Positions 23,690 to 41,219 are shown, numbered from the stretch's first letter. The stretch is 64,000 bases of DNA from a virus (IMGVR_UViG_3300021961_000037:1-64000), one strand, 5' to 3'. The notes: generated by a model from the letters alone, not told the origin. Program-made: numbers and translations.

Positions 23690-24997
23690 TCAGGCAGGTG
23701 CTCCGTCGAACGTGACAGCAACGAACGCCTCAGGGCGCTTGACGGCGAGCGCAAGGCGCTGCTCGGCAAGAACCACGATTGCGTTACGGACGAAGAAGTC
23801 CGCATGCTGTTCGCTGATTCGGATGGACGCTTGCTCGCGGTCGTACAACTGCGCGCCGGTTCCGAACGCACCGACGAGAGCGGTGCCCTCGGCGATGGCA
23901 GGAGTGTCCACGACGGGGATGCGCCACAAACGTGGCTGACCACCGAGTGCAACCGAGACAGCAACGAGGTACTGACCGTTGTTGTCCTTCGACAGTTCGA
24001 TGTCTTCCCAGTCGTTCGGGTGCAAAACGACACCCGTCGGCTCGTAGTACGCAAGGAACGACAGCGTGGCAGCGCGACGAATCGCGTCAGCCTTGAGGTC
24101 GCCCACTGCGCCAGAAGACCAGTCGTAGGTCTGGATGCCCGATGTCTGAAGAACGCCAGTCAGGTTCTCGCCGGTGCCATCACCGTTGAGAATCTGCTCG
24201 TCTTCCTGCAGACGGAGACCGTACATCAACTCGTTGTCGATGATCGAGCGCAACTGCGGCTCGTCAGCAAGAACGTTGCGGTGTGCGGCTTCCCAGTGGG
24301 CGAGTGTGCGGACAGGAGCCTGCTCACCAACGAATGTGAAGCCAGACTGCGGCTTCGCTGCGAAGGTTGCCGGCGAACCACCACGCTCAGCAACTGCTGC
24401 GGCGTTGTTGGTGAAGCCCGTCATGCGGAAGTACTCGATCACTGCTGCAGTGGTCGTGCGGGTTGGGAACAGGTCACGAACGCGACGTGTGCGCATCGGC
24501 GGAACGACGATGGCGTCACGCTGAACCGAGCCGAAAGAACCAGGGGTGCCACTCGGCAGTGCCGAGTAGATGTCCTTGGTGCCCCAAGCGCCGGTCACAT
24601 CGGCACGGTTGACCATGTAAGGCGAAGGCATGTTCGCGCCGTTACGACCCTGGTTCAGAGCCTTGAACTCGTCGGATGTTGTGAACATCTCGCCGAGGCT
24701 CTTGGCCTGATACGGAGCCGGAGCGGACTGCGAAGCGACGGCGGCTGCCTGAGCGACGGACTCAGCCGACGACTCCGAACCCCAGCGCTCTGCATCGCGC
24801 ATTCCCTCAAGACCCTCAATGAGTCCCTTGATTTCGCGAATGTCCGACATGTTGCGGTCAAACGCACTCTTCTGTTCTGCGGAAACAACAACTGTTCCAT
24901 CTTCGACCTTGAAAGAGTCGGCAATGGTCTTGTTGTCCGCCATCTTTGCGCGAAGTGCACCTTGCAGTTCGCGGAGACGACTGTCATCGAATGACAT
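23690..24997 (-). CDS. Major capsid protein (HK97 fold)
   Basis: The 435-residue protein has the standard HK97-type order. Residues 1-75 form a helical/coiled region (RLRELQGALRAKMADNK, MSDIREIKGLIEGLEGM) resembling the delta or scaffolding domain. An Ala-rich linker leads to the coat domain with NELMYGLRLQEDEQILNGDG, TGVVLHPNDWEDIELSKD and RISEQHADFFVRNAIVVLAE. It builds the shell after cleavage by the prohead protease at 38.6-41.1 kb. AGGAGG precedes the ATG. It is followed by a strong terminator and preceded by its own promoter. Confidence 0.95.
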   Translation of the reverse strand: MSFDDSRLRELQGALRAKMADNKTIADSFKVEDGTVVVSAEQKSAFDRNMSDIREIKGLIEGLEGMRDAERWGSESSAESVAQAAAVASQSAPAPYQAKSLGEMFTTSDEFKALNQGRNGANMPSPYMVNRADVTGAWGTKDIYSALPSGTPGSFGSVQRDAIVVPPMRTRRVRDLFPTRTTTAAVIEYFRMTGFTNNAAAVAERGGSPATFAAKPQSGFTFVGEQAPVRTLAHWEAAHRNVLADEPQLRSIIDNELMYGLRLQEDEQILNGDGTGENLTGVLQTSGIQTYDWSSGAVGDLKADAIRRAATLSFLAYYEPTGVVLHPNDWEDIELSKDNNGQYLVAVSVALGGQPRLWRIPVVDTPAIAEGTALVGAFGTGAQLYDREQASIRISEQHADFFVRNAIVVLAEQRLALAVKRPEAFVAVTFDGAPA

Positions 24998-25161: not shown

Positions 25162-26295
25162 TTACAGCCTTTTATACCGTTTAACTACTTGGGGGCAGCA
25201 CGCAGATTTGTATTTGATACCAAACTCTCCATCATCAAAATTGCCATCTTTCTTGGCATTTTTGGGGTCTTTGGATGGATGATTTGCGGGAATAAGGTCA
25301 AAATCTTTCCGCGTTCCCTTCGGCATGGGGGCAGATGAACTCATTGCTTTCAGAAATGTTCCAACCCTTTTCATCGCCTCTTTTTCATCACCAACAGACA
25401 AACCACGTAGATAGACAGTCTTCAAATCACGAAGATTTGTTCTGAACAATGGGTTGTCAACATCGGCATTATGACGCCTAACACGGATAGCGAGAGCATT
25501 CACTGCCTCGCTGTCAATTGTCGGTATTTTTCGTTTCGGACGGTTTATTTCCTTCTTCTGAATAAAAGAATCCGCTAGTTCTTTCTTCCTCCCACGACGA
25601 CGACCACGAGGCGAGTTATCGCCACGAATGTTCATCACACGGTTATAGTCGGATCCGTTTGAGCACGGCAACCAAACAATCTTGCCGTCGCGTGCCGTAT
25701 ATCTCCTGATTCCTATACATCCGAGGTTTCTTGAGCGGACACGAGCAGAATCGGGGTTGGTGAATACATCAGGGTCGGTTGATCGACTTACAAAGTTGAC
25801 AAATCCTTTATGGTCAATGTCTGTTACGTCTTCATCTTTTCCTGCAACTGGTGCAGACATAAGACCGCCACCGTCAATAGTCTCAATCCCAATTACGCCA
25901 CGCTGACCCAAATTTTCAAACTTGTCGGTTGCAACACATGGTGCGTAGTACCGTTCTCCGCCAAGGATAACTACACGTACTTTTGAGCATCCATTGCGCT
26001 TTGATGCAGCAAGAGCCATCCCTCTGTCTTTGTAATATTCTGAAGATTTTGATTCCATTCTCAGCGACCTGTGAACAATCTCGGCCTCTGAGACAAAACG
26101 GCTTTTTGCCCCCGCCTTCAGATATTCAGACTTACCTTTTCGGATAGCGACAAACTCGTCGTGAGACGCACAGGGCATCCACGACCCGTCAGCCTCGTGT
26201 GCACCACGGCATCCGAGTTGGCGGGCTACACGAAGAGCCTGTTCACGAGAGACTTTCGGTTTTTCACCTTTTGAAGAAAAGGAAACAGATTTCAT
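25162..26295 (-). CDS. Protein with three Cys-pair repeats
   Basis: The 377-residue basic protein has no known family. It contains three copies of a module with a GC step and a distal [WY]-x-PC: C29/C42, C103/C120 and C193/C211 (LGC...SWMPC, NGC...YYAPC, LGC...VWLPC). Each copy is preceded by an Ala/Arg-rich helix and followed by a Phe/Tyr helix. An Arg/Lys-rich linker and a C-terminal CC pair follow. The repeats may be zinc- or disulphide-stabilised binding units. It is last in the minus-strand head operon before the capsid gene. Confidence 0.75.
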   Translation of the reverse strand: MKSVSFSSKGEKPKVSREQALRVARQLGCRGAHEADGSWMPCASHDEFVAIRKGKSEYLKAGAKSRFVSEAEIVHRSLRMESKSSEYYKDRGMALAASKRNGCSKVRVVILGGERYYAPCVATDKFENLGQRGVIGIETIDGGGLMSAPVAGKDEDVTDIDHKGFVNFVSRSTDPDVFTNPDSARVRSRNLGCIGIRRYTARDGKIVWLPCSNGSDYNRVMNIRGDNSPRGRRRGRKKELADSFIQKKEINRPKRKIPTIDSEAVNALAIRVRRHNADVDNPLFRTNLRDLKTVYLRGLSVGDEKEAMKRVGTFLKAMSSSAPMPKGTRKDFDLIPANHPSKDPKNAKKDGNFDDGEFGIKYKSACCPQVVKRYKRL

Positions 26296-26537
26296 TAATC
26301 TTCTATTTCTATATTTTCCATGGATGAACCCATGAACTCATCGTAAAGTTCATCAATCTTGTCTCTATTCTCTGGCTGGGAAAGGTACCACGCCATCATG
26401 TCTGACGCATTTTCATCGTCTGATTCATTTGCGAAGGCAACAGCAATCGTCAAAATACGTTGGCGAAGTTCCGGTGACTCCACATTGTCAAAAAATTCTG
26501 CGCGCATTGCAACAATGTCTTCATCTGAAAGTTTCAT
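26295..26537 (-). CDS. Small acidic hypothetical protein
   Basis: This 80-residue, Asp/Glu-rich helical protein (VAMRAEFFDNVESPELRQRI, ending MENIEIED) has no known domain. Its ATG shares a base with the upstream stop (TAATG), and its stop overlaps the start of the next gene. It could be a small virion or chaperone-like component for its large neighbours. Confidence 0.7.
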   Translation of the reverse strand: MKLSDEDIVAMRAEFFDNVESPELRQRILTIAVAFANESDDENASDMMAWYLSQPENRDKIDELYDEFMGSSMENIEIED

Positions 26538-29500
26538 TATGCCCTGACCCTTCTGTTGCGACGCCTAACTGGTGTCAATGATGTCCTCAAAAGTCTACGG
26601 GGATCAGACTCAACTTTTTCTCTAGCGAATGTCAAAATACCGCCACCAATTGGTGCATTAGCAAGGAACCACCCTTTAACCTGAGCATCACGAACCTTAT
26701 CTTTGCCGCTTCCCGAGACGGCAAAAATCATTTCTTGGTGTGAAACCCGTGGCTTGGTGAGCAATTTCCTCACTAGTGCATATTCTTGGTCGTTGCGAAT
26801 AAGCCCACCGCCACCAAATTTCTCATAGAAACGAACTTCTTCAAGAAACGATTCAACCGGGAATGCTGATCTTGGCTTATAGCCAACTTTTGCCCAAACA
26901 AACTGACCATCCTGAGCGGCTGTAACTTTTGCTTTGGTTACGCCAATTGCTTGGAGACCCATGAAGGCATAGTTGTTGTAAATGGTTGCAATACCATTGT
27001 TTTTGTCGGCATCATTGGTGATGAAAAGTGTTCCGTTGTACACCTGCTTGTTGTTCAAAGTTATTGACCTTGACGATGAGCCGACTTTTCGAAGTATCCG
27101 ACCGTTACTGTCAATTTCATTGAAATTAACCTCAACACTGAAACTTGAACCAGAGCCCCTAACAGAGGCAACGGCGTTGTAGAGTTTCCCGTTTTCTCCA
27201 ACAATTTTGTCATGCTGATAGAGATTTTTGATATAAGCCTGCTGCTCGGAAGGTTGCAACATGCGGAATGCTTCAGGCGTCATGTCCTTCCACGGCAGGT
27301 CGCCATCGCCATGTCGTTGTCTTAGGTATTCACCGATTTTTTTCTTGCGTCGCACAATTCCATCACCAATAACATTTTTGATGTTGTCCGCCACACCCTG
27401 CCCGAGTTTCGCTGCTTTTTCATCAAGTTTGAAATCTGGTCGTTGCTGAGCAAAACGAACAGCAGCAATCAAATCGTCTTTGCGTGACTGATACGCACGG
27501 TATTGGGCGAGGTTTCCATACTCGCTACTTAGCGACGCAAGGAATTGAAGAACATTTTCGTTTTGGGGAGAATTTTTTATCCTATCTTTTAGTTGTGTAA
27601 TGCGTTCTAGTATCTGATTTTCGTTCTGTGGAATTGCAAGACGAAGATTCTGGTTAACCCTGTCTGCTATTTCTTGGTTGGTCGCATTTGCATTGATGGA
27701 AGCCAGAACTCTCAGCAGTGATCTTTGCATGGCTCTATTTGCAGAATGAACACCCTTCAAATGTTGACCATCCAACCCGTCAACCCAAGCAAATGCCTTT
27801 GCCCGCAACTGCTCATCTTGAATTCGATTAACAAAACCTTTAATTTCGTCAATTTCCTTCTTGTCAATACCTTTGATTTCCGCAGCAGCAAATGCTTTCG
27901 GTTTTACCCCACCAGCATTTACCTGTGGTGCGTTTGGAACAGTAGGAGGCTCTGGGGCGTTGGGCGCCTGTGGCTCTTTCGGTGCCTTTGGTGCTTGTGG
28001 CTTAGGCGCATTGCGTCGCTCATCACGCTCACGAATCAGCCTATTGATCCGGTTTGTTCGCTCGTTATAGTTGATTCGCGCAATTTCGTACTCTTCATTG
28101 CGGAGGACAACTAATTCTGCGAGAAGACCTATTTGTTCTTTGCGTTGGTCGTTATCTGGTTGGTTATTTATTAAATCTGCAATGCGATTAAGTGCTGATC
28201 GCCTATCCCCACTTCGTCCAGTCATCCTGTTGAGGTCGGCATCTCTTTGTTGATTGAGAAGAGGGATACGGTCTTCACCATACTGTCCAACAACACCAAT
28301 TACACGAGACTCAATCTCGTTTAGTCTTCCATCAAGTCCACGCAATCGTTGGAGGACGACTGAACGCCTATCTTCGCTCATCGGAAGACCTTCAACAAAC
28401 TTGCGGACTTTCTCTTCGTTCGCGGCGTTGCCACGCTCTGGAATGTCCGAAAGCAAATCAGTCGCTTTGATTCTTTTTCTGGGCGCAGGTTTTGGCGGTT
28501 GCGCACCAGCATCTGGAACCGCATCAGCGTTGGGTCGTTGTGTTGCAACACGCTCGGCCCTCTGCTCCGAAGCAACGCGACGACGCTGGCGCCTCGGCCT
28601 TGGCGTAGGCTGAACTGGTTGAGCCTCTGGAGCGTCAACTCTTGGCGCATTTTCATCCGTTCTTGGAGCACCAGGCTGAACAATCTCCCGCTGCATTCGT
28701 CGTTGTTCCGATGGACGAAGATTTCCACGGCTTTGGCGTCGGCGTCTTGCTGGTGCTGCTGGTTGTTCAACTACCCGCTCTACACGGTTGCGCCTACCAG
28801 CGTTAGCCCCACGGGGTCGTCGTGGTGGGTTGACTACCTCAGTTGACCTGTCATCATCTCGTCCTTCAAGCCGTTCTGCAACTCCTCGAAGACCACGCTC
28901 AAGACGACCTGCCCCTCGTTCGGCGTTTTGTAAACGGTTCACCATTCGTTCGTTGCGGCGATTTACTCTCCTGCCGCGGCGACCATCATCAATATTTTCA
29001 AGACGTTCACCGATATTTGTTATTGCATTAGCAATACGTCGCGCCACTCCCCAGCCACAGTTTCGTCCAAAGCGATCCGTAATTTGACCGCCATACCGCG
29101 TACCGACTGGGCACCGCCAACCTCCACGCCGGTTCGTTCCCGGAATTGACAGATTGGGGTCCCACATTGCCCGTACACGCTTTACCTCATAATTAAATGT
29201 TGTTTTGTGTCTTTCCGAAATGAATGCGGACGCTTTGTAGGCAATGATTGATTTTGCTTCTTCTGTTGAAAAAACCGATATTGGGGTGTCAGAAATTGAA
29301 ACAATAGGGAGCATCTTTTCTTGTTCTTGTGACTCAGATGCTTCTGCTTTCGCTTTTTCTATTGCCGCTGGAAGCAAATTCTGTGGCATTGGGCCGTCAA
29401 TCCTCATGCCTCTATCTAGTGAAACTGCAAGTTCTGATTTGGGTATTGGGGAATCCTCATATTCGTCAACAAGGGCGCTGACAAGTTCTTTCGCATTCTC

Positions 29501-29593
29501 TGTTAGGGGCGTGAATTTTGAGCCTTGGCTGGATACAAGCACGGAGAAGAAAGGCTTGTTGTCTCGTGTCCTAACCAGAAAAGCAGTGTTCAT
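26537..29593 (-). CDS. Giant modular head-associated protein with Cys signature
   Basis: This 1018-residue protein has four parts. (1) Residues 1-150 start FLVRTRDNKPFFSVLVSS and match the start of the 948-residue neighbour. (2) The signature RCPVG...ITD...C has C161 and C179, then a basic GRRGRRVNRRNERM stretch. (3) A long Arg/Pro/Ala-rich, probably disordered region (about 240-380) is followed by helical segments, with a second Pro-rich linker near 545-590. (4) A C-terminal globular region (about 790-1000) contains a phrase like GQFVWAKVGYKPRSAF, often seen at the end of large actinophage proteins. No enzyme class can be assigned. It is probably carried in the virion. Confidence 0.75.
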   Translation of the reverse strand: MNTAFLVRTRDNKPFFSVLVSSQGSKFTPLTENAKELVSALVDEYEDSPIPKSELAVSLDRGMRIDGPMPQNLLPAAIEKAKAEASESQEQEKMLPIVSISDTPISVFSTEEAKSIIAYKASAFISERHKTTFNYEVKRVRAMWDPNLSIPGTNRRGGWRCPVGTRYGGQITDRFGRNCGWGVARRIANAITNIGERLENIDDGRRGRRVNRRNERMVNRLQNAERGAGRLERGLRGVAERLEGRDDDRSTEVVNPPRRPRGANAGRRNRVERVVEQPAAPARRRRQSRGNLRPSEQRRMQREIVQPGAPRTDENAPRVDAPEAQPVQPTPRPRRQRRRVASEQRAERVATQRPNADAVPDAGAQPPKPAPRKRIKATDLLSDIPERGNAANEEKVRKFVEGLPMSEDRRSVVLQRLRGLDGRLNEIESRVIGVVGQYGEDRIPLLNQQRDADLNRMTGRSGDRRSALNRIADLINNQPDNDQRKEQIGLLAELVVLRNEEYEIARINYNERTNRINRLIRERDERRNAPKPQAPKAPKEPQAPNAPEPPTVPNAPQVNAGGVKPKAFAAAEIKGIDKKEIDEIKGFVNRIQDEQLRAKAFAWVDGLDGQHLKGVHSANRAMQRSLLRVLASINANATNQEIADRVNQNLRLAIPQNENQILERITQLKDRIKNSPQNENVLQFLASLSSEYGNLAQYRAYQSRKDDLIAAVRFAQQRPDFKLDEKAAKLGQGVADNIKNVIGDGIVRRKKKIGEYLRQRHGDGDLPWKDMTPEAFRMLQPSEQQAYIKNLYQHDKIVGENGKLYNAVASVRGSGSSFSVEVNFNEIDSNGRILRKVGSSSRSITLNNKQVYNGTLFITNDADKNNGIATIYNNYAFMGLQAIGVTKAKVTAAQDGQFVWAKVGYKPRSAFPVESFLEEVRFYEKFGGGGLIRNDQEYALVRKLLTKPRVSHQEMIFAVSGSGKDKVRDAQVKGWFLANAPIGGGILTFAREKVESDPRRLLRTSLTPVRRRNRRVRA

Positions 29594-29750
29594 TGATTTG
29601 CATCTTTCTAGATTGCAGAATAGTGCGTGCGTAGCATCAAAAACGCTATAGAAATCTTACCACTATGTGATATGCGCCGTAGAGCAAGCACGGGGAGACA
29701 GATTTTCGGTCAACCCAACACTGGATATGTAACCAATTTCAGAAGTTGTA

Positions 29751-30089
29751 TTATTCTGCCTTTGGTGTTGCCCACGCACTTGCTGTTGCCACTGACTTTT
29801 TTGCTCCGTCCGATTCTGGCTCAAAGAAATCAGATGGATTTGGTGAATATCCGTTTGACTCCCAGAATTTCCCTAAGTAGATATAGGCGATGTCTTCGTA
29901 TTCGTTTGTAGATGTCGCTTTTTCCAATTTTTCAGCGACATTGTTGAGATATGTTTTCGTCTCATCGTCGGTAGAAGGGTTAATCATTATGTTGACTTTC
30001 CCATCTTCAATCACAACAACAGAACGAGGCGCTTTACGCTTGTCTACATCATCAAGAAAATAACTTACATATGTTCCATCTTCAAACAT
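29751..30089 (-). CDS. Hypothetical acidic protein
   Basis: The 112-residue protein starts MFEDGTYVSYFLDDVDKRK, with a short beta-rich N-terminus, a central helix (YLNNVAEKLEKATS) and a loop-like C-terminus. GGGAG lies 5 nt before the ATG. It follows the kinase-like gene closely and may be its immunity, chaperone or co-packaged partner, by position only. The 157-base gap below it (29594-29750) holds no clear gene. Confidence 0.7.
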   Translation of the reverse strand: MFEDGTYVSYFLDDVDKRKAPRSVVVIEDGKVNIMINPSTDDETKTYLNNVAEKLEKATSTNEYEDIAYIYLGKFWESNGYSPNPSDFFEPESDGAKKSVATASAWATPKAE

Positions 30090-30091
30090 TT

Positions 30092-32938
30092 CTACTCCCT
30101 TGATGCTTGAGCGATATTGCGCAATGTTGCTTGGATGTTGTCCCTATTCGCTCTGATTCTATCTTGTGGCATGCCAATCGCTCGCCAATAACGAACCATT
30201 TCTGTAACCACATTTGCAATTGTGGCGTCAGACAGATTGCGGAAATTTTGTCTAATTGCCGCCGAATCAACCCTTTCCAGTATTCGTCTAGCATCGTCAA
30301 GAGACCTCTGTGGCACGATCCCACGCCCTCCTGCCATAATTCCATGGTCAATCGGCAGTTTCTGATTTCCCGCCCACATGTAGTTGTTGATATGCCTGTC
30401 TGGATTTCCAAGAATCTCATCAATAAACTTGACATGTTTTGATGCTTGGCGGTCAGGGCTGTTTGGAGCATTGCGCCCTTCGGTAACATCCATGCCATGA
30501 ACATCGCCAAAATGTTCAACAAGAATACTGTGGTTCATATTCCGTCTATTTCGCTCTCGATTTACACGCTCTTCTCTTGCTCCAATAATGCGAACACGCG
30601 CCATTGGGCGGCCAGACAACTGACCAATAAGAGCAGCCAACTGTTCACCCACCGCTTCATCTTCCACAAATGACGGAGATTTAATGATGTAGCGCTTTCC
30701 AGTTACCTGATCAACCACAAGATATGTTTTATGTCTGTCGGATGCGGCACCCCTATTATTGATACCGTTCCCAGGGTCTCCAAGTAGTTGAAATCTTTTT
30801 CCATTGACTGGAGTTCCCGGCATTGCTGCATTATCAAATATTGCGTCTTTGACCAAGAGGTCTGGGACATCATCAAGCGACCCGCCATTCGCTAAATGAT
30901 TTTTTGCATCAGTAGCATTATTGATTCCCACATTTCCACTTGCAACATGCTTTGGAACGAGGACGCCATCAACGACGGTGTGTCCCATGTTTTGCTCAAA
31001 TCGCTTATTGCCATGCCCGTGAATGCCAGTATTAACTGACCTGAGGTCAGAAGCCTTTATTTTGTCCCCATCAGCCCCTCGGCGTCGCCGTGTTTTACGA
31101 ACTGGTGTTTGTGGTTCTGGTAGCGGTTCTTCAGCCGGAGGTGGCTGTGGCGGTTGTGATGGGAGTCTGCGAGCAGGAGGCTCAGGCGGTGCCTGTCTTT
31201 GATTTGGGGCAGCAGCACCACGGTTGCGCTCTTGAATCATTCGGTTCACATAATCACCACGGGCATTGCGCTGATTGTTGTTGTCGTAGTAGCGACCGAA
31301 ACGGCGCTCAAGTTCGGCTTTTTCTTCGCCTTCAGGGAAATCTGGTTCACGCCAATACGCAGTGTCTGGAAGACCATTCTGGCGGAAGCGGTTATATACA
31401 TTTCTCTCTGAACGTGCATCGGGAAGACTTCCACCCAAATCTGGTGGTTGTGGTGGTGCGGGTGGTGCGGGTGGTGCTTCTGGAACAACTCGTGTTGGTC
31501 TAGCCGCAGGACGTTGCTGTGGAATCGGTTGGTCGGCAGGACGAGGACGGCGATTAGCGCCCTGACCAGCCTGTGCATCTGAAGCATTCACCCTGCGACG
31601 ACGCGGGGCTCGGGGTTGAGGTCGACGCTCTGGTCGTGGAGCAACATTCCTCTCGTCAGGAACTTCACCACCATTTGCGCGACCCCATGCTTCACGCAGA
31701 TTGTTGCGGTTGAATTTGTACCACTCATCTCGGGTGAGTAAACCAGCCCGACCGCCACGACGCTGAATTTCTTGCACACGATTCTCGTACTCGGCGTATT
31801 TGCGATTTACGTAGTCGTCGTACCTTTCGCCCGCTCGTGGTGCATCACCAATATCGCTGGCTGTTTCGTCCACTCGTTCTGCTGCTGCTCCTCGGCGTCG
31901 AGGTTGCCTTGGTGGGCGAGGTGGCTCCTCTGTGCGCGGAGCGCCAGGCTCTCGGACTTCTCGTTCCATTCTCCGCTGTTCAGATTCACGAAGATTGGGT
32001 CGCCGTCTCCTCGGCGGGCGAGGTGGTGTTTCTCTATCTTCTGGAACATCGATTTCTTGTTGCCGTTGCGGTGCGACACGACGAACAGGACCAACACGAA
32101 GCGGACCATCTTCGCCGAATACCTGCGCTAAACGACCCCTCCTGCGTCCGCCAGTTGTTGGTTCTGCAACGCCATCACCTTCAAGACGTTCTGCGATACC
32201 ACGCAATCCACGCTCAACACGTCCACCAGCGCCAGCATCTCGCCGGAGTCTGCTAGCCATTCTTTCATTTCTGCGATTTACTCGCCGACCACGACGACCG
32301 TCGTCAATGTTTTCCAATCGTTCGCCAATGTTGGTTATTGCATTTGCAATCCGTCGTGCTACACCCCATCCACAGTTACGACCAAAGCGGTCAGTTATTT
32401 GACCACCGTATCGTGTACCTACCGGGCACCTCCAACCGCCACGGCGATTTGTTCCTGGGATTGCCAAATTGGGATCCCATAGCGCACGGACACGCTTAAC
32501 CTCATAGTTGAATGTTGTTTTGGTTTGGTCAGCGATAAAGGCGAGCGCTTTGTATTCAATGATGTTGTGGCGAATTTCGCTTGGGAAGTCATCAATTACG
32601 CGGTCGGCAACATCTGATGAATATACGGTTTTTGAAATCATTGCTGGCGGCTTTGTTCCGCTTTCATATTGCGGAATGTTTGCTTCCTCTAGAAATGATG
32701 CAATCCGTGTTCGTGTTTCCCTATTGACTTGCAATGGACCCTCTATGCTCAGGTCATCATCAAGCGCCCCATCAAGTTCGTTTTTCTTTATCGGCTTGTT
32801 TTTGTAGGCTTCATCAAGCGCATTTGTGACATCGTCGGCATCTTCGGAAAGTGGCTGAAAGTCTGTTGACCCAGCAGAAACCGTTACGAGGATATACGGA
32901 CGGTTGTCTCGTGTGCGGATGAAGTAAACGGATTTCAT
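30092..32938 (-). CDS. Giant modular protein with kinase-like C-terminal domain
   Basis: In this 948-residue protein the first 220 residues parallel the 1018-residue neighbour (FIRTRDNRPYILVTVSAG, then RCPVG...ITD...C with C171/C189). The middle (about 250-640) is Arg/Pro-rich and likely disordered. From about 660 a folded domain shows a HipA/phosphatidylinositol-kinase-type pattern: KRYIIKSP (Lys near 753), EDEAVGEQLAALIG, ILVEHFGDV, catalytic loop GNPDRHINNYMW (DRH at 847) and LPIDHG (Asp near 864) as metal-binding Asp. It could phosphorylate a host protein or be a catalytically altered relative. Confidence 0.75.
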   Translation of the reverse strand: MKSVYFIRTRDNRPYILVTVSAGSTDFQPLSEDADDVTNALDEAYKNKPIKKNELDGALDDDLSIEGPLQVNRETRTRIASFLEEANIPQYESGTKPPAMISKTVYSSDVADRVIDDFPSEIRHNIIEYKALAFIADQTKTTFNYEVKRVRALWDPNLAIPGTNRRGGWRCPVGTRYGGQITDRFGRNCGWGVARRIANAITNIGERLENIDDGRRGRRVNRRNERMASRLRRDAGAGGRVERGLRGIAERLEGDGVAEPTTGGRRRGRLAQVFGEDGPLRVGPVRRVAPQRQQEIDVPEDRETPPRPPRRRRPNLRESEQRRMEREVREPGAPRTEEPPRPPRQPRRRGAAAERVDETASDIGDAPRAGERYDDYVNRKYAEYENRVQEIQRRGGRAGLLTRDEWYKFNRNNLREAWGRANGGEVPDERNVAPRPERRPQPRAPRRRRVNASDAQAGQGANRRPRPADQPIPQQRPAARPTRVVPEAPPAPPAPPQPPDLGGSLPDARSERNVYNRFRQNGLPDTAYWREPDFPEGEEKAELERRFGRYYDNNNQRNARGDYVNRMIQERNRGAAAPNQRQAPPEPPARRLPSQPPQPPPAEEPLPEPQTPVRKTRRRRGADGDKIKASDLRSVNTGIHGHGNKRFEQNMGHTVVDGVLVPKHVASGNVGINNATDAKNHLANGGSLDDVPDLLVKDAIFDNAAMPGTPVNGKRFQLLGDPGNGINNRGAASDRHKTYLVVDQVTGKRYIIKSPSFVEDEAVGEQLAALIGQLSGRPMARVRIIGAREERVNRERNRRNMNHSILVEHFGDVHGMDVTEGRNAPNSPDRQASKHVKFIDEILGNPDRHINNYMWAGNQKLPIDHGIMAGGRGIVPQRSLDDARRILERVDSAAIRQNFRNLSDATIANVVTEMVRYWRAIGMPQDRIRANRDNIQATLRNIAQASRE

Positions 32939-34221
32939 TTCTTTGCTTTTGCCTTAAGTGATTCCTTGATGAAAGCCTCATAAACCCATTTGCGCACTGT
33001 TCGCTCAACACCATCCGGACCAGTAAATGTCACTAGTTCAAGCGGTTCTGGGACATTGCCGAAGTCTTCTGTGTATTTGAATGCGCCTTTTGTTGCGTCC
33101 GCAAATTCTTTTATGTTTGCGCCGACATCATATGGATTCTTATTCACTGCACTGTTTAGTTGTCGCCCAAATTTCCGGCGTTCACCAACGGTCAGTGGTC
33201 GCTGTCTTTCAATGCTGATAGAAGCACCATTGGGTGCAACAAACGCAATCCTACTCATTGATGGGCCAGCGAGAAGCGCAAGATCATCGGAGGATATTGC
33301 TTGTGGCGTTCTTGCTGCGCGAATCATTGCTCCATCCAGCATGTCTTTGTTTCCGCTGAACTGGCGGAGAACAGACGATGGAACAACTGGACGAAGAACG
33401 ATTCCGTCACGACGAATCATCCGACCTTCACCATCCTCTGCGCTCTTCAGCACTTTGATTGCATCAAGAACCGACTTGTTGAAAGCCTTCCTATTCGGGG
33501 CGGCATTTCTTGGTATTTTTGCAAGACGCTGAATTTGAAGAGTTCTCTCACGCGTGTTTTGTCCCTGCACAACTTCAGAAAGACTTTCTGCGCGTGCAGT
33601 TGGTGGCTTATTGTTTGCACGTCGGATTGCTCGTGCAATCAAAGCCAAGGGTCCTGGGATGTCAAACAATTGGGCTCCACATGTTGAGAATTGGTTGTCT
33701 GTGAATCTGCCACCAAACTCAAATCCTGCAGGGCATCGTGAAATCTTGTCATTGACATTAGGGATGAAGCGACGAACCCCGCCACCACCACCTGGAGTGA
33801 GGGCGCGATAAATACCCGAACGTATCGGGTTCCTTGCCGGAGATACGTTTCCAGGTGTTACATATGAACCAATGCCTTGAATAGTCCTTCCAATTGTTGA
33901 ACCAGAACTAACAAGTCCTACTTTTTCGTTAATTGGGTCACCGCCAACAACTCCCCTGCTGATTGTTGAGCCAAGGCGTGACATTCTTTGACGAAGATAA
34001 AGATGTGCTTTAAGATTCAGCAAATCCCTGTTCCCGTTAAGTGGGGTTGAACGAATGTTGGAATGACTGGTTGCAAGTTGTTTAGATTCGTTGATTTTTA
34101 TGGTCATTTCCGTTCCGAGCGGGATGATTGTCCGTTTCACTGAACTTCCAGTACGGCATCGACTCTTCACCCTGCGTGTCCGCAGAAAGCGGTCAATTGT
34201 TTGATTTATGAAACTGCTCAT
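32935..34221 (-). CDS. Head-associated protein with Cys signature
   Basis: The 428-residue protein begins with a basic segment. A Gly/Ser-rich region leads to the shared signature SRCPAG...FTD...C (C163/C181) and a helix ALIARAIRRANN. The C-terminal 230 residues are alpha/beta with LELVTFTGPDGVERTVRKW at the end; no enzyme motif is evident. It overlaps the kinase-like gene by four bases. It appears to be the minimal member of the local family, possibly structural. Confidence 0.72.
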   Translation of the reverse strand: MSSFINQTIDRFLRTRRVKSRCRTGSSVKRTIIPLGTEMTIKINESKQLATSHSNIRSTPLNGNRDLLNLKAHLYLRQRMSRLGSTISRGVVGGDPINEKVGLVSSGSTIGRTIQGIGSYVTPGNVSPARNPIRSGIYRALTPGGGGGVRRFIPNVNDKISRCPAGFEFGGRFTDNQFSTCGAQLFDIPGPLALIARAIRRANNKPPTARAESLSEVVQGQNTRERTLQIQRLAKIPRNAAPNRKAFNKSVLDAIKVLKSAEDGEGRMIRRDGIVLRPVVPSSVLRQFSGNKDMLDGAMIRAARTPQAISSDDLALLAGPSMSRIAFVAPNGASISIERQRPLTVGERRKFGRQLNSAVNKNPYDVGANIKEFADATKGAFKYTEDFGNVPEPLELVTFTGPDGVERTVRKWVYEAFIKESLKAKAKK

Positions 34222-34281
34222 CGGTGCCCTTTATTAGGTCGCAACTTATTTGAGGCTGAAATAATTGTACATTACTGAATA

Positions 34282-34533
34282 TCACTCCGATTCCTTCGGT
34301 TTGTCACCAATTCCGACGGATTCACGCCACTGTTCAATGTTTTTGTCGTTGATAACGACTTTGCCGTTTCTTGGCCGAGTACTCAGCATTACATCAATAT
34401 CCGTCGGCATTACGGATTCAGTAACAATTGTATACCAGATTTCCCCGTCGTATCCATGAACATAGGTTGCGCCAAGAAAACTGGTGACCCTTTCGCCACT
34501 GTGCCCGGTGTAGTCAGGTACTTTTAACGCCAT
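34282..34533 (-). CDS. Hypothetical protein
   Basis: This 83-residue, beta-rich protein (ATYVHGYDGEIWYTIVTESV, then GKVVINDKNIEQW) starts at the stop of the peptidase-like gene (TGATG), so it is translationally coupled to it. It has no recognised family. An accessory or protective partner of that protein is possible by position. Confidence 0.68.
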   Translation of the reverse strand: MALKVPDYTGHSGERVTSFLGATYVHGYDGEIWYTIVTESVMPTDIDVMLSTRPRNGKVVINDKNIEQWRESVGIGDKPKESE

Positions 34534-36818
34534 CAGAAAATAACCTCTTCCTTTGGAAGGTCTGGCATCCGACCAGAAACCGCTCTCAATTTACGAACCC
34601 ATGCTTTCGCTTCTGGGGTCATGATAGTTGAACTGACCTGAGAATTTTGCGGAACAATCAAACGTGTCATCCGACTAATATCATCAATAACCTTGTCATC
34701 AATTACATTGGCATCAGGGAAATGTTGCACATATTTGCTAATCGTGATTCCCTCTGCAACGGACTCCCAAATGTTGGTTCTTGCGTAGTCGGACGATTGC
34801 CCAAGGTTCGGCAAAACATCCCTAAATGTTTGACCTTTGCTTTGTATGCGCATTGAGTCAAATCCAAGAACACCACTGAATGCCTGACGGCCTTCCTCCA
34901 TGAAATCCTCAATACTTTGTCCGTCAAGCGCTGTCTCAATGACTCGTCTGATGCCGTCAATTTCTTTGAAATCTTCAACATCATCTGTTTTGTAACCAAA
35001 CATCTTATTTCGGTTAGAGCCAACAGAATCCAGCGCCTGATAAAGGATGTTGTCCTTATCCCTCAATACTGTCTCTTTCGGAGAATAAAACTGGTTCAAG
35101 TTTTGAAGAGCATTTGAATCACTGTCAACCGCAAAACTGTGAAGAGTTCTAGTCGTGTAGTTACCAAAATATTCATCAAGATTCTTTGCTCCGGTGTAAC
35201 CGAAGTTTACTCGTCTTTCTTTTTCATCAGTAAAAAGTTTCGTAATATCAGACCATTTGGCATCAGGGTCAATACCGTGGTCAAGTGCAAAACGTGAGCC
35301 AAGATATGTGTCTCCAACATTTTCACCTTTGGAAATAATCTGTTGAAGCGCCGGCTTTGCGCTCGCATCCGGGTCAATGCCAACAGACCTTAGGATTTCA
35401 ACATAGTGCGATGCGTGAGCAACTTCGTGGATAGCGAGATTCACCTGATTATCGTCTGCGCCAATAATTCTCACCGTATGATCCAGCATGTCTCCTGCCC
35501 TGCCGACATCATCACTCAGTTTGGAATTATCCATCACCAAAGAATCTGGCACGATGCGCACAGCAGGAATTACTTTTCCATCACTATGAGCGGCCATCCA
35601 TGCGTAACCACCAGCACCGTCCAAACCCCTATCGCTTGAACGATGTACCTCAAAGGTGAATGTTCCTCTTAAGGATGGGTTATCGGCAAGAGAAATCTCG
35701 ACACCGACAAGAGACTCAATTATTCCTTTGGCAACCTCATTGCGGACGGCATTTTTGCCTTCTTCGGTTTGCATAATGTCAATGATTTTCTGTAATTGAC
35801 CTGCAAGTTCCTTGCGTCTTGCATCTCTTTGCGGCTCAAGCCCGTCAATTGCTTCAGTTATGAGAGCAATTCGCTTAGCGCCATCTTTTTCAAGATAGTC
35901 AAGTGAATCATCAATCATTTCCTTTGCACTTCTTGACTGTGGTATCCCCATCTTCAGCATCAATTCGTCGCCAAATTCTTCAAAACTTCTTTCCCCACGG
36001 TCTGGGACATATTTTGCGAGGAGTTTCTCCGACTTCGCCTCAAGTTCGGTATTGAAAGAATCGGCATCAAATGTGACTTTTGCGAGTAGCGGGCTACGAT
36101 CAGAATCTGCTGGTGGTGAAGCATCAGCCAAATCCATCTGCGGGGTTTCAAGTCTCCTATTTTCTTTTCTGTTCTTTTTTCGGATTGACGCAAGTACGCC
36201 AGTTGAATACCTTGCGGTACCAAAAAGATTGAGTCTGTCAATAAGTTCATTGGCCTCTGACCGCTGTTCTGCTGTCAGTTTCCCACTCTTCTCCAAACGA
36301 TTAAGCGCTAGTTCAGCCACATCTCGTCCTGCAGAACGAACCAAATCAACACCAAGAAGAGTCATTGCGGAAAGCGTCCCAGAACCGTCAACATTCAAGT
36401 AATCCAAAGCGTCAAGAGTTGCGAGCGAAGCCATTACTGCAACACGTGCAGCACCGCGAACTTCTTTCTTATCTAGGACTGCTTTTGCTTGAGAAAGCAG
36501 TTGACCAACTTCTCTCCTGCTAGCACGAACCGCACGTTTTGCGAGCGCCAAGCCAGGAACCATGCAGTTGGACATCTGCATGTCGGTAAACTGATTGGCG
36601 TTTGGCGTACCCGGCGGGCAACGAAGTTTCCCCAACTCGTCAACAATCACTCCAGCGGCACGCGCAGCACGAGAGCCAACAGATGAAATGTTTGGGTTGT
36701 CCCTCAGCGAAGGACCAAGAAAGCCCTTGAACAAAAGGACATTTTCGTGAACAGAAGATACAGATTTTCTGTATGCCTCCACCCTCTCGTTTGCATCCCA
36801 AGCAAGAGACGACTTCAT
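34533..36818 (-). CDS. Modular protein with HExxH peptidase-like domain
   Basis: In this 761-residue protein the signature LRCPPG...FTD...C (C67/C85) comes early, followed by an Ala/Arg-rich helical region and a helical middle (about 250-375). A domain around residues 385-560 then contains NLAIHEVAHASHYVE, with HEVAH at 464-468, the consensus zinc-metallopeptidase motif. A downstream DEYFGNYTTRT might contribute a third ligand. If active, it could cleave cell-wall peptides or host or virion proteins. It overlaps the small gene 34282-34533. Confidence 0.72.
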   Translation of the reverse strand: MKSSLAWDANERVEAYRKSVSSVHENVLLFKGFLGPSLRDNPNISSVGSRAARAAGVIVDELGKLRCPPGTPNANQFTDMQMSNCMVPGLALAKRAVRASRREVGQLLSQAKAVLDKKEVRGAARVAVMASLATLDALDYLNVDGSGTLSAMTLLGVDLVRSAGRDVAELALNRLEKSGKLTAEQRSEANELIDRLNLFGTARYSTGVLASIRKKNRKENRRLETPQMDLADASPPADSDRSPLLAKVTFDADSFNTELEAKSEKLLAKYVPDRGERSFEEFGDELMLKMGIPQSRSAKEMIDDSLDYLEKDGAKRIALITEAIDGLEPQRDARRKELAGQLQKIIDIMQTEEGKNAVRNEVAKGIIESLVGVEISLADNPSLRGTFTFEVHRSSDRGLDGAGGYAWMAAHSDGKVIPAVRIVPDSLVMDNSKLSDDVGRAGDMLDHTVRIIGADDNQVNLAIHEVAHASHYVEILRSVGIDPDASAKPALQQIISKGENVGDTYLGSRFALDHGIDPDAKWSDITKLFTDEKERRVNFGYTGAKNLDEYFGNYTTRTLHSFAVDSDSNALQNLNQFYSPKETVLRDKDNILYQALDSVGSNRNKMFGYKTDDVEDFKEIDGIRRVIETALDGQSIEDFMEEGRQAFSGVLGFDSMRIQSKGQTFRDVLPNLGQSSDYARTNIWESVAEGITISKYVQHFPDANVIDDKVIDDISRMTRLIVPQNSQVSSTIMTPEAKAWVRKLRAVSGRMPDLPKEEVIF

Positions 36819-36830
36819 CGTCTCACCTAC

Positions 36831-37061
36831 TTAGAACGATTCGGCTTCGGCAGGCTTCTCTTCTGTTGACTCAACCACCGCTTCTGTCACATCGGACTCG
36901 GCAACCGGCTCAGCAACGACTGCTTCTGCTTCATGTGCAACGGACTCTTCAGCCTTCTTTGATGAACGCTTCTTTGGTTTTGGCTGGGCGGAATCCTTCA
37001 CTTCTGAAGATTCTGCTCCGCCGATAAATCCAGCGCTGTTGGGTTGACGAACTTTCTTCAC
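36831..37061 (-). CDS. Disordered Lys/Glu/Ala-rich protein
   Basis: The 76-residue, low-complexity protein has a KPKKRSSKKAEE segment followed by an acidic Ala/Val/Glu tail (AVVAEPVAESDVTEAVVEST). Its GTG overlaps the preceding stop (GTGA). It may be a capsid decoration, scaffolding-like or DNA-compaction tail. No fold was recognised. Confidence 0.65.
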   Translation of the reverse strand: MKKVRQPNSAGFIGGAESSEVKDSAQPKPKKRSSKKAEESVAHEAEAVVAEPVAESDVTEAVVESTEEKPAEAESF

Positions 37062-38569
37062 TTTGTTTCTCCATCTTGCTCAATTTCCAATGCGAGCATC
37101 TCAAACTCCATCAGGGAACCGATGAGATTCTTTGCTTCGTCGTCAGAAAGTTTCTCTTCATCTGTTTCGACCAGAGACTTCTCTCCGTCCATCCAGTTTT
37201 CAGGAATCATTTCTTCCTTGCCAAGGTCGCGGGCACGCTTCATGATGTGCTTCTTTGCCGCTTCCTTATCGCCTGCGCGACCGAAAGCCTGAATTGCGTT
37301 CTGCAAGTCCGCCTCATCAACGATTGGGAATGATCCGTCTGGAAGAGCCATGCCTTCTTTGGCAAGTTCTTCACGGCGGTCGTCGCTATACATGCGCTTC
37401 AGGGCAAGGTCAGCAACTTCCTCATCAATATCCGATGCTTCTTCGGCATCGTACTCGTCATATCCGAGTACTTCTCCGTCAACACCAACGAAGACATCGT
37501 AAGACTTGCCGTCCGTGCCCTCAATTTCAACGGCGTATGCGTCGTAGCCCTCGAACATGTCTGCATCAACGGCAACAACTTCGCCCTCAATGGACTTCGT
37601 TGCAATTGACGCTGCTTCGTCAAACGAGATGACTTTCTCGCCAGGGACTGTGGCAACTTCGCCAATCAAATCCTCATTCAGGAGGTGCCATCCCATGCAC
37701 TCGCCGGTAGTTCCGTCAAAGTAAGCCTCAATCGGCTTTCCATCTTTGCGCTGAACATCAACAACGAAGATATCCGTCTTGTCTGCGTATCCAGAGTCAA
37801 GGATTTTTCCGCTGAACATATCTTCGGCGATACCTTCAACTTCAAGAAGTGTCGGCATATTTTCGTGTGGTTCGCATCCGCCAGGGCAGTTTGCGCAAAT
37901 GTCACTTCCACCAGGGTACATTTTGCGCTCAATCGCGCAAACGAACGCCTGCTCGTCACCATCGAACTGCTCGCTCTTCACGCCCATGCTTTCCATGCGC
38001 TTCTTGCGTGCATTCTTGCGGTTCTTGAGCATTTCCTCAAGTTGACCCCACATCTTTTCTTCTTCTTCGTCGTCCATTTGGTCGTCGCCATCAACTGCTG
38101 TGACAGCGTCTTCCTTCATGTCGTCTTCTTCTTCGTCGTCCTCTTCGTCGGCGACTGCTGCGGCCATTACTTCCATCGGGGAAGTTGGCTTGGCTGCTGA
38201 CGCCTTCTCTTCAACATCCTCAACATTCTCTGTTGTCTCAGTTGTTGAGTCTTCAACCCAGTCGGACTCAAATTCATCATCCTTGACTGCGACGGCGGTA
38301 GCACCGCACTTGCCGCAGACTTTTGCGCCTGGCTTGTATCCGCACTCAGAGATATCAAGACCCTTTGCGCACTTAATATCGCCGTTGGCGAGAAGTTGGA
38401 CTGTCGGTGTATCTGCCATGTCTTCTGACTCCTTGTATTGCATCGTCTTCACGATGCAACCCGCTGGATTGGTACAACCACTACATGGCGTAAGGCGTTT
38501 AACGCCCGAAACCATGCAGTGATATTTTGCTGATTTTTCTGGTAAACCTGTATTAGAAGTATAACCCAT
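37058..38569 (-). CDS. Acidic Cys-rich protein with PepSY-like domains
   Basis: The 503-residue, very acidic protein has an N-terminal Cys cluster (CSGCTNPAGC; later CAKGLD...CGKCG) and an Asp/Glu-rich linker. A second cluster follows (CAIERKMYPGG, CANCPGGC), then two PepSY-like repeats (IFVVDVQRKDGKPIEAYFDG; YAVEIEGTDGKSYDVFVGVD). A C-terminal region GSFPIVDEADLQNAIQAFGR resembles a segment common near phage capsid genes. Its location between protease and capsid and its acidic character suggest a scaffold or virion protein. An alternative ATG at 38419 has a good AAGGAG. Confidence 0.7.
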   Translation of the reverse strand: MGYTSNTGLPEKSAKYHCMVSGVKRLTPCSGCTNPAGCIVKTMQYKESEDMADTPTVQLLANGDIKCAKGLDISECGYKPGAKVCGKCGATAVAVKDDEFESDWVEDSTTETTENVEDVEEKASAAKPTSPMEVMAAAVADEEDDEEEDDMKEDAVTAVDGDDQMDDEEEEKMWGQLEEMLKNRKNARKKRMESMGVKSEQFDGDEQAFVCAIERKMYPGGSDICANCPGGCEPHENMPTLLEVEGIAEDMFSGKILDSGYADKTDIFVVDVQRKDGKPIEAYFDGTTGECMGWHLLNEDLIGEVATVPGEKVISFDEAASIATKSIEGEVVAVDADMFEGYDAYAVEIEGTDGKSYDVFVGVDGEVLGYDEYDAEEASDIDEEVADLALKRMYSDDRREELAKEGMALPDGSFPIVDEADLQNAIQAFGRAGDKEAAKKHIMKRARDLGKEEMIPENWMDGEKSLVETDEEKLSDDEAKNLIGSLMEFEMLALEIEQDGETK

Positions 38570-38613: not shown

Positions 38614-41130
38614 CTACTTTTTGCTTTCAATATTTTGGATTACATTGGTGAGAGCATCATATGCATCGCTAGGAATATCTGCGATGTCAAATATTTCAAC
38701 ACCAAATTCATTTGCTTCTGACTTGATTCCGTAGTGTTCAAGAACGGGGTCAAGTATTTCCTTAATGCCAAAGACGCTCTGTGTCTTGGCTTTCACGAGG
38801 AAACTTCCGCTTTTGAGTTCAAGTTCATTGACCCCTCCAGCGAGAAGAACTTCCTGCATCAACTTGTATGCGTCACGCAATTTCTGCATATTTCGTGCAT
38901 TTATTACGCGACCAGCCTTAACTTCAACATCTTCCTCAAGTTCTTTGACCATCTCAGCAAGCGCTGCGGCTAGGGCAGCAATCATTTCCCTGCCCCCACC
39001 ACCACAACTTCCGCCACAACCGCAACCACCACCAGGCTTTGACATGAGAGGCATCTCAATGGTTTGCCCATCTTCGTCTTCACCCTCAATAACCCAGTTG
39101 TCGTCACCAGTCATCTGCGAGATGAACTCTGGTTCTGCGTTCATGAACTCACGAAGAGCCTCGTATGCCTGCTTGTTTGCGTCCTCTTCGTCATCTGTCT
39201 CAAAGTCCGGCAAGGAACCAACAGCCATCCGTTCTGCTACTTCTTCCATCATCATTGCGTTCTTTTCCTCAGTTCCCTGATCTCCAAAAACCTCAATAAT
39301 GTCTTCCACCGTGAACGAGCCATCATCTTTGCGCCCTGCCAAGCGACGAAGTCGGTCATTCCACTCTGAGTCATTCCAAATTGAGCCGTTGGCGATTCCA
39401 CGAATCTTCTTGCGGCAATTCTTCATCCCAGGATGATGGCATCCTTCGTTCGGCCAGAGACCAGTCGTTTCGTGGTGAAGCCATGCACAGATGTTGTTCA
39501 ATGGGTACAACTCTGGATGGTTAGCAAGAATCACTCGGCATCTGCGGAATCCACCTGGCTTACGCATGATTGGACGCCAGTAGCGGAGCAAGCGCTCAAG
39601 GTTGCCTCGACGAGGACCGTACCCACGGAAACGAGCAGTGACCACTTCCTGCGGAATCAAGCCGCCAAGCGGGTCAGCCTTTTCTGGCGACTTCGGCTTC
39701 ACACCAACGGGAACCTGCGGGTCTTCATCCATGTCGTAGCGGTCTTCAAAACGACGTTCTTCGTCTGTGGTGGAAGGACCTTCGTCGCCGTTCATATTGA
39801 GAAATACCAACTTTGGCTTGACCCGTGTCGGGTCGCCGAACATGAACTTGCCGTCTTCGTAGTGGTAGGAAACGCGGAGTGTGGTGACACCCTGCTCGCC
39901 ACGGTGGTCAAAGATGACCTGGTTGGCGTCTGATTCACGAACACGAACAGCACCACCAAACCGTTTTGCAAGCGCACTTGCGAGGTTCGCCGCACGACCT
40001 AGTTCTGGCTTTGTTGCTGGAACGCTGTCGTCGTTTTCCTCGTCTGATTCTTTTTCTTTTGCTTGTTCCATCAGTCGGCTAATCATTTCCATAACGCGGC
40101 GCTTCTTAAACTGCTCCATTGCGCGGGCACGCATCATCCGCTCCACTTCGGAGCGATTCATCGCCTTCGGTGTCGGCTCCATACCCTTTGACCGGAGTTC
40201 GGCGTAGACAAACTGCTGGCATTCCTTTTTGAAAGACGGATCTGATGTCACAGCCTCAATTGCTTTGGCTTGTATGTCACCAATTTCTTCAGTCTTCTTG
40301 GAGTTTTGATAACGCTCCAGCAGCCTTCTGCCTTTTGCGGCAAGTTTGGATGCATCTTCCATGTTCTGGGGAACAGGTTCACCCCAAGCGGCTGCCGACA
40401 GTGCGAGACGTGTCGGTTTGCCGTTGTCGTCCTTCATTGGACCACTTGGGTTTGTAAAGAAACGAGTAAGGAATGAGCCCTTGCGACGCATCTTTTCTGG
40501 TGTGTCGGCGGGTCCCTTTACCCCGGGCTTGAGGTTTGAGCCCTGCGTGCGATTGAAGTGTCGTCGACCAGCGGCGGTCAAACCACCCTTGGGGTCTTTG
40601 AGTGGCTGGTCTTGCTTGATGCTGATTGTTCCCGTGAGTTGGTTTGCGCCATGCAAAACGGGTGAAACTTCGTAAAGTTCAACTTTCTTGAGAATGTTTG
40701 CTTGCCGTGCTGGGTCAAAGTCTGCCTCAAGTGTTTTGTAGCCAATTGACCATTCTTGTTCTTCCCCAAAGAACGAAACATCTGCAAATGCTTGACGTCC
40801 ACGCTCTGACTTGAGGTTGAACTGAACTCGGGCGTACATTCCGCCGATTCCAGCATTTTTCATTTTTGCTGGCAGTCTCGGGTCGGACTTCGGAACCTCG
40901 TAGATTTCTAGAACTTTTCCAATCGGTTCATTCCAGTTGTGGCCCCAAACTACGCGAGGCTTACGGCGCTTAAGGCTTTCCGTGAATGCGCCAGAGATAA
41001 TGATGTCCCCGACTGAGTCTTTGTTGCCGATACCCGCTACAAAGGCTTCAACAATTCCTTGGGCTTCGTCAACATTTACTTGCCCTTGGACTGCCTTATA
41101 TTCCGTAAGTTCGATTGCTGTGTTTGGCAT
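38614..41130 (-). CDS. Prohead protease with long C-terminal extension
   Basis: Residues 1-175 are an HK97-type (S78) prohead protease: VEAFVAGIGNKDSVGD, catalytic His64 in VVWGHNWNEPIGKV, catalytic Ser128 in EWSIGYKT, then YEVSPVLHGAN. The usual protease is about 200 residues; this protein has 838. The extension contains a helical part, a Cys/His block (CRVILANHPE, CAWLHHETTG, GCHHPGMKNC), a Gly-Cys cluster (GGGCGCGGSCGGGG) and a C-terminal coiled region that could act as scaffold. AGGAGAG precedes the ATG. It should process capsid and perhaps the modular cargo proteins. Confidence 0.88.
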   Translation of the reverse strand: MPNTAIELTEYKAVQGQVNVDEAQGIVEAFVAGIGNKDSVGDIIISGAFTESLKRRKPRVVWGHNWNEPIGKVLEIYEVPKSDPRLPAKMKNAGIGGMYARVQFNLKSERGRQAFADVSFFGEEQEWSIGYKTLEADFDPARQANILKKVELYEVSPVLHGANQLTGTISIKQDQPLKDPKGGLTAAGRRHFNRTQGSNLKPGVKGPADTPEKMRRKGSFLTRFFTNPSGPMKDDNGKPTRLALSAAAWGEPVPQNMEDASKLAAKGRRLLERYQNSKKTEEIGDIQAKAIEAVTSDPSFKKECQQFVYAELRSKGMEPTPKAMNRSEVERMMRARAMEQFKKRRVMEMISRLMEQAKEKESDEENDDSVPATKPELGRAANLASALAKRFGGAVRVRESDANQVIFDHRGEQGVTTLRVSYHYEDGKFMFGDPTRVKPKLVFLNMNGDEGPSTTDEERRFEDRYDMDEDPQVPVGVKPKSPEKADPLGGLIPQEVVTARFRGYGPRRGNLERLLRYWRPIMRKPGGFRRCRVILANHPELYPLNNICAWLHHETTGLWPNEGCHHPGMKNCRKKIRGIANGSIWNDSEWNDRLRRLAGRKDDGSFTVEDIIEVFGDQGTEEKNAMMMEEVAERMAVGSLPDFETDDEEDANKQAYEALREFMNAEPEFISQMTGDDNWVIEGEDEDGQTIEMPLMSKPGGGCGCGGSCGGGGREMIAALAAALAEMVKELEEDVEVKAGRVINARNMQKLRDAYKLMQEVLLAGGVNELELKSGSFLVKAKTQSVFGIKEILDPVLEHYGIKSEANEFGVEIFDIADIPSDAYDALTNVIQNIESKK

Positions 41131-41185: not shown

Positions 41186-41219
41186 ACTTTCAGTAAAGTG
41201 TCTTTGGTTTACTGAAAGT
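41186..41219 (-). terminator. Perfect 12-bp inverted repeat after the portal gene
   Basis: ACTTTCAGTAAA (41186-41197) and TTTACTGAAAGT (41208-41219) pair around a 10-nt loop. On the minus strand it follows the portal stop and runs into GTTGCATTTTTG. It may be a terminator, or an operator given the promoter right beside it. Confidence 0.65.

Follow-up and report, generated by a model that had tools for sequence, protein, structure and literature searches.

How large enzymes are selected for loading into a phage head is, to our knowledge, understood in just a few phages, T4 and P1 among them. The question is raised afresh by an uncultured virus, IMGVR_UViG_3300021961_000037, of whose 114,094-base record the first 64,000 nucleotides (IMGVR_UViG_3300021961_000037:1-64000, hereafter the window) were analysed: four neighbouring proteins of 1018, 948, 428 and 761 residues, encoded in its head operon, carry one strict two-cysteine signature, R-C-P-x-G-x6-[FI]-T-D-x5-C (hereafter the tag). 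An initial annotation of this DNA had proposed that such a common element loads different effectors into the capsid for delivery. Having followed the tag through related viral genomes, we consider it probable that this is a modular tag for encapsidation, borne by effectors that are ejected, in three head-cargo families of uncultured aquatic, probably actinobacterial myoviruses. A system in which interchangeable enzymes are loaded into heads via one short tag looks previously undescribed, packaging, cleavage and injection being the parts of it that we infer.

A six-frame regular-expression search of the window returned exactly four matches to the tag, all of them in the four large open reading frames, and the equivalent DNA pattern matched four times against none in 100 dinucleotide-preserving shuffles; the remainder of the virus record, beyond the first 64 kb, holds no additional copy. 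As the initial annotation had read them, the cysteines lie 18 residues apart in all four proteins, at C161/C179 (1018 residues), C171/C189 (948 residues), C163/C181 (428 residues) and C67/C85 (761 residues). The corresponding tags occupy 29057-29116, 32372-32431, 33679-33738 and 36564-36623, within genes at 26537-29593, 30092-32938, 32935-34221 and 34533-36818, respectively, all on the minus strand. Because the 1018- and 948-residue proteins are N-terminal paralogues (~52% identity across ~310 residues), sequence comparison reduces the four tags to three independent lineages: family A (the two paralogues), family C (428 residues) and family D (761 residues).

Scanning IMG/VR with a degenerate DNA pattern recovered at least 119 viral stretches, and nearly all the matches listed place the motif inside long open frames. 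Clustering of the pre-tag parts of the matches listed gave these three families and one singleton, with 69 sequences in C, 58 in D and 32 in A. The C proteins, present in all whole records examined, are mostly about 680 residues long and combine a conserved domain, often, with a degenerate kinase; D proteins range from 500 to >3200 residues, most with an HExxH motif about 300-400 residues past the tag, which a kinase can replace in the window's clade; and A proteins (about 840-2900 residues, one to several per phage) mostly carry a DRHxxN kinase. In L025, L068, L072, L078 and L115 one protein bears two tags, separated by about 360-390 residues, and looks like a fusion of a C-type and an A-type protein. 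The residues R, C, P, G, T and C are invariant in an alignment of 42 diverse tags, and the cysteines are 18 apart in 200 of the 201 tag copies of the fetched loci when spacing is left open, a constancy partly biased by the picking of the first loci with fixed spacing.

Genomic position is as constant as the tag itself. A gap-tolerant profile search of 30 whole records gave 78 matches; in the 25 records with both anchor genes, 65 of 66 tags lie between the prohead protease and the capsid gene on the same strand, the lone tag outside being a weak 20-bit match, and the position is conserved in 24 of these 25 records. The window's own anchors, likewise on the minus strand, are the major capsid protein (PF05065, E 1.5e-45; 23690-24997) downstream of the cargo region and an 838-residue prohead protease (S78, PF04586, with DUF6321; 38614-41130) upstream of it. 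The location between capsid and protease genes given in the initial annotation is thus confirmed, and the profile search that it had proposed as a check found the tag recurring in that place with varied domains attached.

The tag module, counted from 45 residues ahead of the motif start to 60 beyond it, is kept while the sequence behind it is exchanged, with modules 90-96% identical joined to unrelated or different C-termini. The module is 90% identical between the window's two A proteins, the remainder of which matches over just 25 residues; it is 95% identical between the A proteins of L040 and L022, which stay ~74% identical across the next 200 residues and then continue into different kinase types. 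At greater distance, the D proteins of the window and of L018 share a module at 60% identity, and L018 has a kinase where the HExxH stands in the window. To this extent, recurrence beside capsid genes with varied domains and near-identical modules on unrelated C-termini, the modular model of the initial annotation is upheld. A second motif, NLRxSEQRRMxREIxxPGAPRT, lies at 28658-28723 and 31931-31996 and is kept within the otherwise variable arginine/proline linkers of many A proteins of the window's clade.

The attached domains are largely enzymatic in type. Pfam identifies RNase_T (a DnaQ-type exonuclease) in three D proteins and an ADP-ribosyltransferase in one of these three, the L008 protein, in which HExxH at 716 is followed by RNase_T at 2042-2231 and the ADP-ribosyltransferase at 2395-2628; it also identifies NUDIX in the two-tag fusion protein of L064 and PI3/PI4- or HipA-like kinases in several tagged proteins. 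The tagged proteins of the window have at most one recognisable domain each. The C-terminal domain of the 1018-residue A protein is unrecognised, with no match in Pfam, PHROG or NCBIfam. The 948-residue A protein ends in a putative HipA/PI3K-like kinase with its catalytic residues retained, including the catalytic loop DRHINN (residues 847-852; 30383-30400, minus strand); its match to HipA_2 (E 0.061) is under the curated family cut-off, the best kinase match among relatives is PI3_PI4_kinase at E 2.1e-7, and across A-family kinases the catalytic Lys, Asp, Asn and second Asp are invariant (alignment A7). The C-terminus of family C is a homologue of these kinases (hhalign 98.7%, E 3e-16) and, having lost Asp and Asn from its catalytic loop, is probably a pseudokinase. 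The window's own C protein, along with its clade, is without the C-terminal pseudokinase of most C proteins and ends in the conserved C-family domain (residues 235-423; 32953-33519, minus strand), modelled at a predicted local distance difference test score (pLDDT) of about 90. The HExxH of family D, represented by HEVAH at residues 464-468 of the 761-residue protein (35415-35429, minus strand), is essentially invariant and has no Pfam or PDB family match; judged by the motif, the D proteins bearing it are likely metallopeptidases. A fold search with the poor model of the 761-residue protein returned as its top match an uncultured-phage protein named 'PI3/4-kinase' in UniProt, the rest being not interpretable.

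Outside the tag, cysteine has been purged. The 1018-, 948- and 761-residue proteins have no cysteines but the tag pair, the 428-residue protein having one extra; 16 complete A proteins contain 2 non-tag cysteines in 15,644 residues (0.13 per 1000 residues, against 11 per 1000 in the window's other open reading frames), and A-family proteins of 2129 and 2889 residues have just the tag pair. Cysteine is wholly absent from the capsid protein and from the putative tape measure protein (1159 residues; 54863-58342). Such depletion points to virion residence, and perhaps to threading or the avoidance of stray disulfides. Upstream of the tag stands a hydrophobic-K-A site ([FYL]-K-[AG]). Of 31 A proteins 30 have it, 41 residues away in the examples listed; so do 42 of 60 C proteins, at a distance that is often 76 or 78 residues. 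In the window it takes the form YKA at 29231-29239, 41 residues upstream of the tag of the 1018-residue protein, and at 32546-32554 in the 948-residue protein (both minus strand), a putative processing or binding site. Maturation cleavage could take place there, on the model of P1 DarA and the internal proteins of T4. The idea that FKA is one common prohead cleavage site of capsid, protease and tagged proteins was considered and weakened, because the capsid FK[AS] lies in the N-arm past the expected HK97-like cut and because the protease YKA stands at the start of the S78 domain.

From a module held in common, exchanged C-termini, a constant location in the head operon and cysteine purging, we infer the following course of events. 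The N-terminal module, comprising [FYL]-K-[AG] and the two-cysteine tag, would be read at prohead assembly by the capsid, the portal or the scaffold, for which protein F (described below) is a candidate, and the head would take in any protein bearing it, possibly with trimming of the N-terminus by the prohead protease close to the KA site. The C-termini, variable in kind (kinase, likely metallopeptidase, exonuclease, NUDIX, ADP-ribosyltransferase or unknown), would travel in the head, be ejected with the DNA and act on host targets early in infection.

Several observations weigh against this proposal. Firstly, the whole records were taken from pattern hits, mostly the longest, and are no random sample. 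Secondly, the closest isolated relatives have neither the tag nor cargo between protease and capsid. Thirdly, cysteine poverty is common to ordinary virion proteins and so is no demonstration of ejection. Fourthly, the tag has no confident predicted fold: in AlphaFold2 models built from family alignments its pLDDT is 40-56 in the 428-residue C protein and 60-77, with tiny strands only, in the 761-residue D protein, the whole model of which is poor. The single small fold around the two cysteines that the initial annotation anticipated did not emerge, and in these models the tag, at least in isolation, resembles a linear motif more than a small, stably folded domain. Finally, family C, largely pseudokinase or unknown domain, could be structural.

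That last point leads to the alternative that survives best, one we judge unlikely though well worth keeping in view: the tagged proteins would be assembly or structural factors rather than delivered effectors, with the tag as an anchor to scaffold or shell, for example in an inner-capsid lining, and with the enzymes acting on other virion proteins or within the cell that makes the phage. Their fixed place between protease and capsid is where scaffolds are encoded, P1 DarA lines the capsid (PMC12810830), and family C is universal in the records with its probable pseudokinase. Among the viral-library matches of the 428-residue model are several minor capsid proteins of phages (probability 1.00, E from 1e-4 to 1e-3); we read these matches, for which the aligned residues were not displayed, as coming from the C-terminal domain, because it is the only confident part of the model. 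A PDB fold search with the same model gave nothing below E 0.5. An assembly factor should however be conserved, whereas enzymes here are swapped among near-identical modules, and this swapping, together with the ADP-ribosyltransferase, NUDIX and exonuclease domains, fits host-directed effectors better.

A further possibility, which we regard as improbable, retains delivery and gives the cysteines a switching role: a disulfide confined to the tag, or a shared metal site, would lock the cargo in the virion and open in the reducing cytoplasm of the host. The near-total purge of cysteine from proteins of up to about 2900 residues would then leave the tag as sole disulfide former, and one portable tag would serve many interchangeable effectors. 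Slightly more doubtful still is a reading in which the tag is a structural mini-element, a disulfide or metal-bound hairpin, that stabilises the large head proteins of this lineage and has no loading role, the proteins entering the head via other contacts. The pair being the only conserved cysteines, at constant distance, would suit such an element, as would the short strands in the tag of the 761-residue model; the want of a confident fold does not, nor does the presence of the tag in three otherwise unrelated families, always near the cargo N-terminus and only in this operon. That these are host-takeover enzymes made during infection, non-virion and in the head operon by chance, is very improbable: the enzymes are of the classes found among host-takeover proteins, but the conserved position and a cysteine purging like that of virion proteins speak against it.

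Returning to the encapsidation tag as the preferred reading, its value would lie in being strict and searchable. With it, head cargo in environmental phages could be spotted by sequence alone, candidates for injected effectors (kinases, nucleases, an ADP-ribosyltransferase) could be listed, and biotechnology would gain a second capsid-loading signal. The initial annotation knew of no described family of this kind, and this held in every library searched: no family in Pfam, PHROGs or NCBIfam covers the tag region, the tag profile has no meaningful PDB match, and nor have the D and C profiles. Searches with tblastn of the 1018-residue, the 761-residue, one C-family and one D-family protein against 50,697 phage records gave no match, leaving all three families without a counterpart in this isolated-phage collection, and the 45-residue tag region gave chance-level matches only against the same records. 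Among GTDB genomes the tag matched four metagenome-bin contigs only, which allow no host assignment, and a full-text literature search found no paper using the motif strings in this sense.

The surrounding operon runs, in minus-strand order, portal, prohead protease, F, D (761), C (428), A (948), A (1018), E and capsid. The portal protein (41219-43441, minus strand) has a MuF-like/head-morphogenesis C-terminus; the terminase lies upstream and is divergent, and the tail sheath gene is on the plus strand, the phage therefore being a myovirus. The interval first annotated as the family, 25162-36818, does contain the four tagged open reading frames, but its first, protein E (DUF3721; 25162-26295, minus strand), is untagged. 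Protein E has three other, short C-x(13-18)-C modules, and DUF3721-type proteins occupy the same capsid-adjoining place in several relatives. Protein F (37058-38569, minus strand) is acidic and Cys-rich, a scaffold candidate present at the same place in all five relatives compared. Its C-terminus matches the corresponding end of capsid maturation proteases from Gordonia phages, the N-terminus of which matches the window's protease; the Gordonia-type maturation protease is seemingly split here, with its N-terminus in the 838-residue protein and its C-terminus in F (F503), so that the cargo genes fall between F503 and the capsid gene. In the eight records behind L009, L012, L031, L058, L089, L106, L110 and L117 (G001, G010, G004, G006, G008, G022, G028 and G014, respectively) the prohead protease domain lies inside giant open frames of about 2900-4800 residues. 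Elsewhere in the window, a phosphoadenosine phosphosulfate reductase gene (sulfur metabolism) stands at 47813-48946.

Gordonia phage GMA6 and Brevibacterium phage Cantare have capsids that are 48-58% identical to the window's and among the closest in isolates, and these relatives suggest an actinobacterial host. In both phages the protease directly adjoins the capsid gene, which is why the tagged cargo is probably an insertion in the window's lineage. In GMA6 (L181:660-4801) and relatives, an ADP-ribosyltransferase and an HExxH head-operon protein have in common a Cys-free N-terminal motif, VRDA[DE]YWGxPVGTPIxxGM; the motif also occurs in Mycobacterium phage proteins annotated as MuF fusions and in an ADP-ribosyltransferase of Gordonia phage Stormageddon. 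Its PxGTP core resembles the CPPGTP of the tag, and the motif is a possible counterpart of the tag in cultured phages, the resemblance being a lead only.

Comparison with known systems places the tagged proteins among several precedents. The cargo of GMA6 and Cantare differs in its Cys-free motif and its place upstream of the protease, whereas that of the window lies between protease and capsid. MuF-fusion toxins likewise join a head-protein module to variable enzymatic domains, but the tagged proteins have no MuF domain, and the MuF-like part of the window ends the portal. Polyvalent proteins are the nearest kind of known system: large and multidomain, with metallopeptidase, kinase and ADP-ribosyltransferase domains, they are predicted to be packaged and injected (Iyer et al. 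2017, PMC5512222). Like them, the tagged genes sit amid virion genes of a portal-terminase phage, and several enzymatic domains can share one polypeptide, as in the D protein of L008; unlike them, the 41 relatives scanned and the window's tagged proteins have no Pfam match to LPD, ArdC-N, MuF-C or PBECR, the kinases are PI3/HipA-like, and a strict two-cysteine tag common to three families does not feature in PMC5512222, where a term search finds the word 'cysteine' absent. The nearest structural precedent is P1 DarA/Hdf, a large antirestriction protein that is injected, is attached to the inside of the capsid and has its N-terminus cut off by the prohead protease (PMC12810830); it differs in sequence, has no two-cysteine tag and belongs to no family of swapped enzymes. 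In T4, a short shared N-terminal element, the capsid-targeting sequence, puts different proteins, even foreign ones, into the head; it is about 10 residues long, lies at the extreme N-terminus and is removed by the maturation protease (PMC7697877). The tag, by contrast, is unrelated in sequence, spans about 20 residues with two fixed cysteines, and lies 48 to 300 residues in, where we propose its function by analogy. As with the internal proteins of T4, a shared N-terminal element is set on otherwise unrelated proteins, and it is this capsid-targeting sequence, though unrelated, that would be nearest to the tag in its working.

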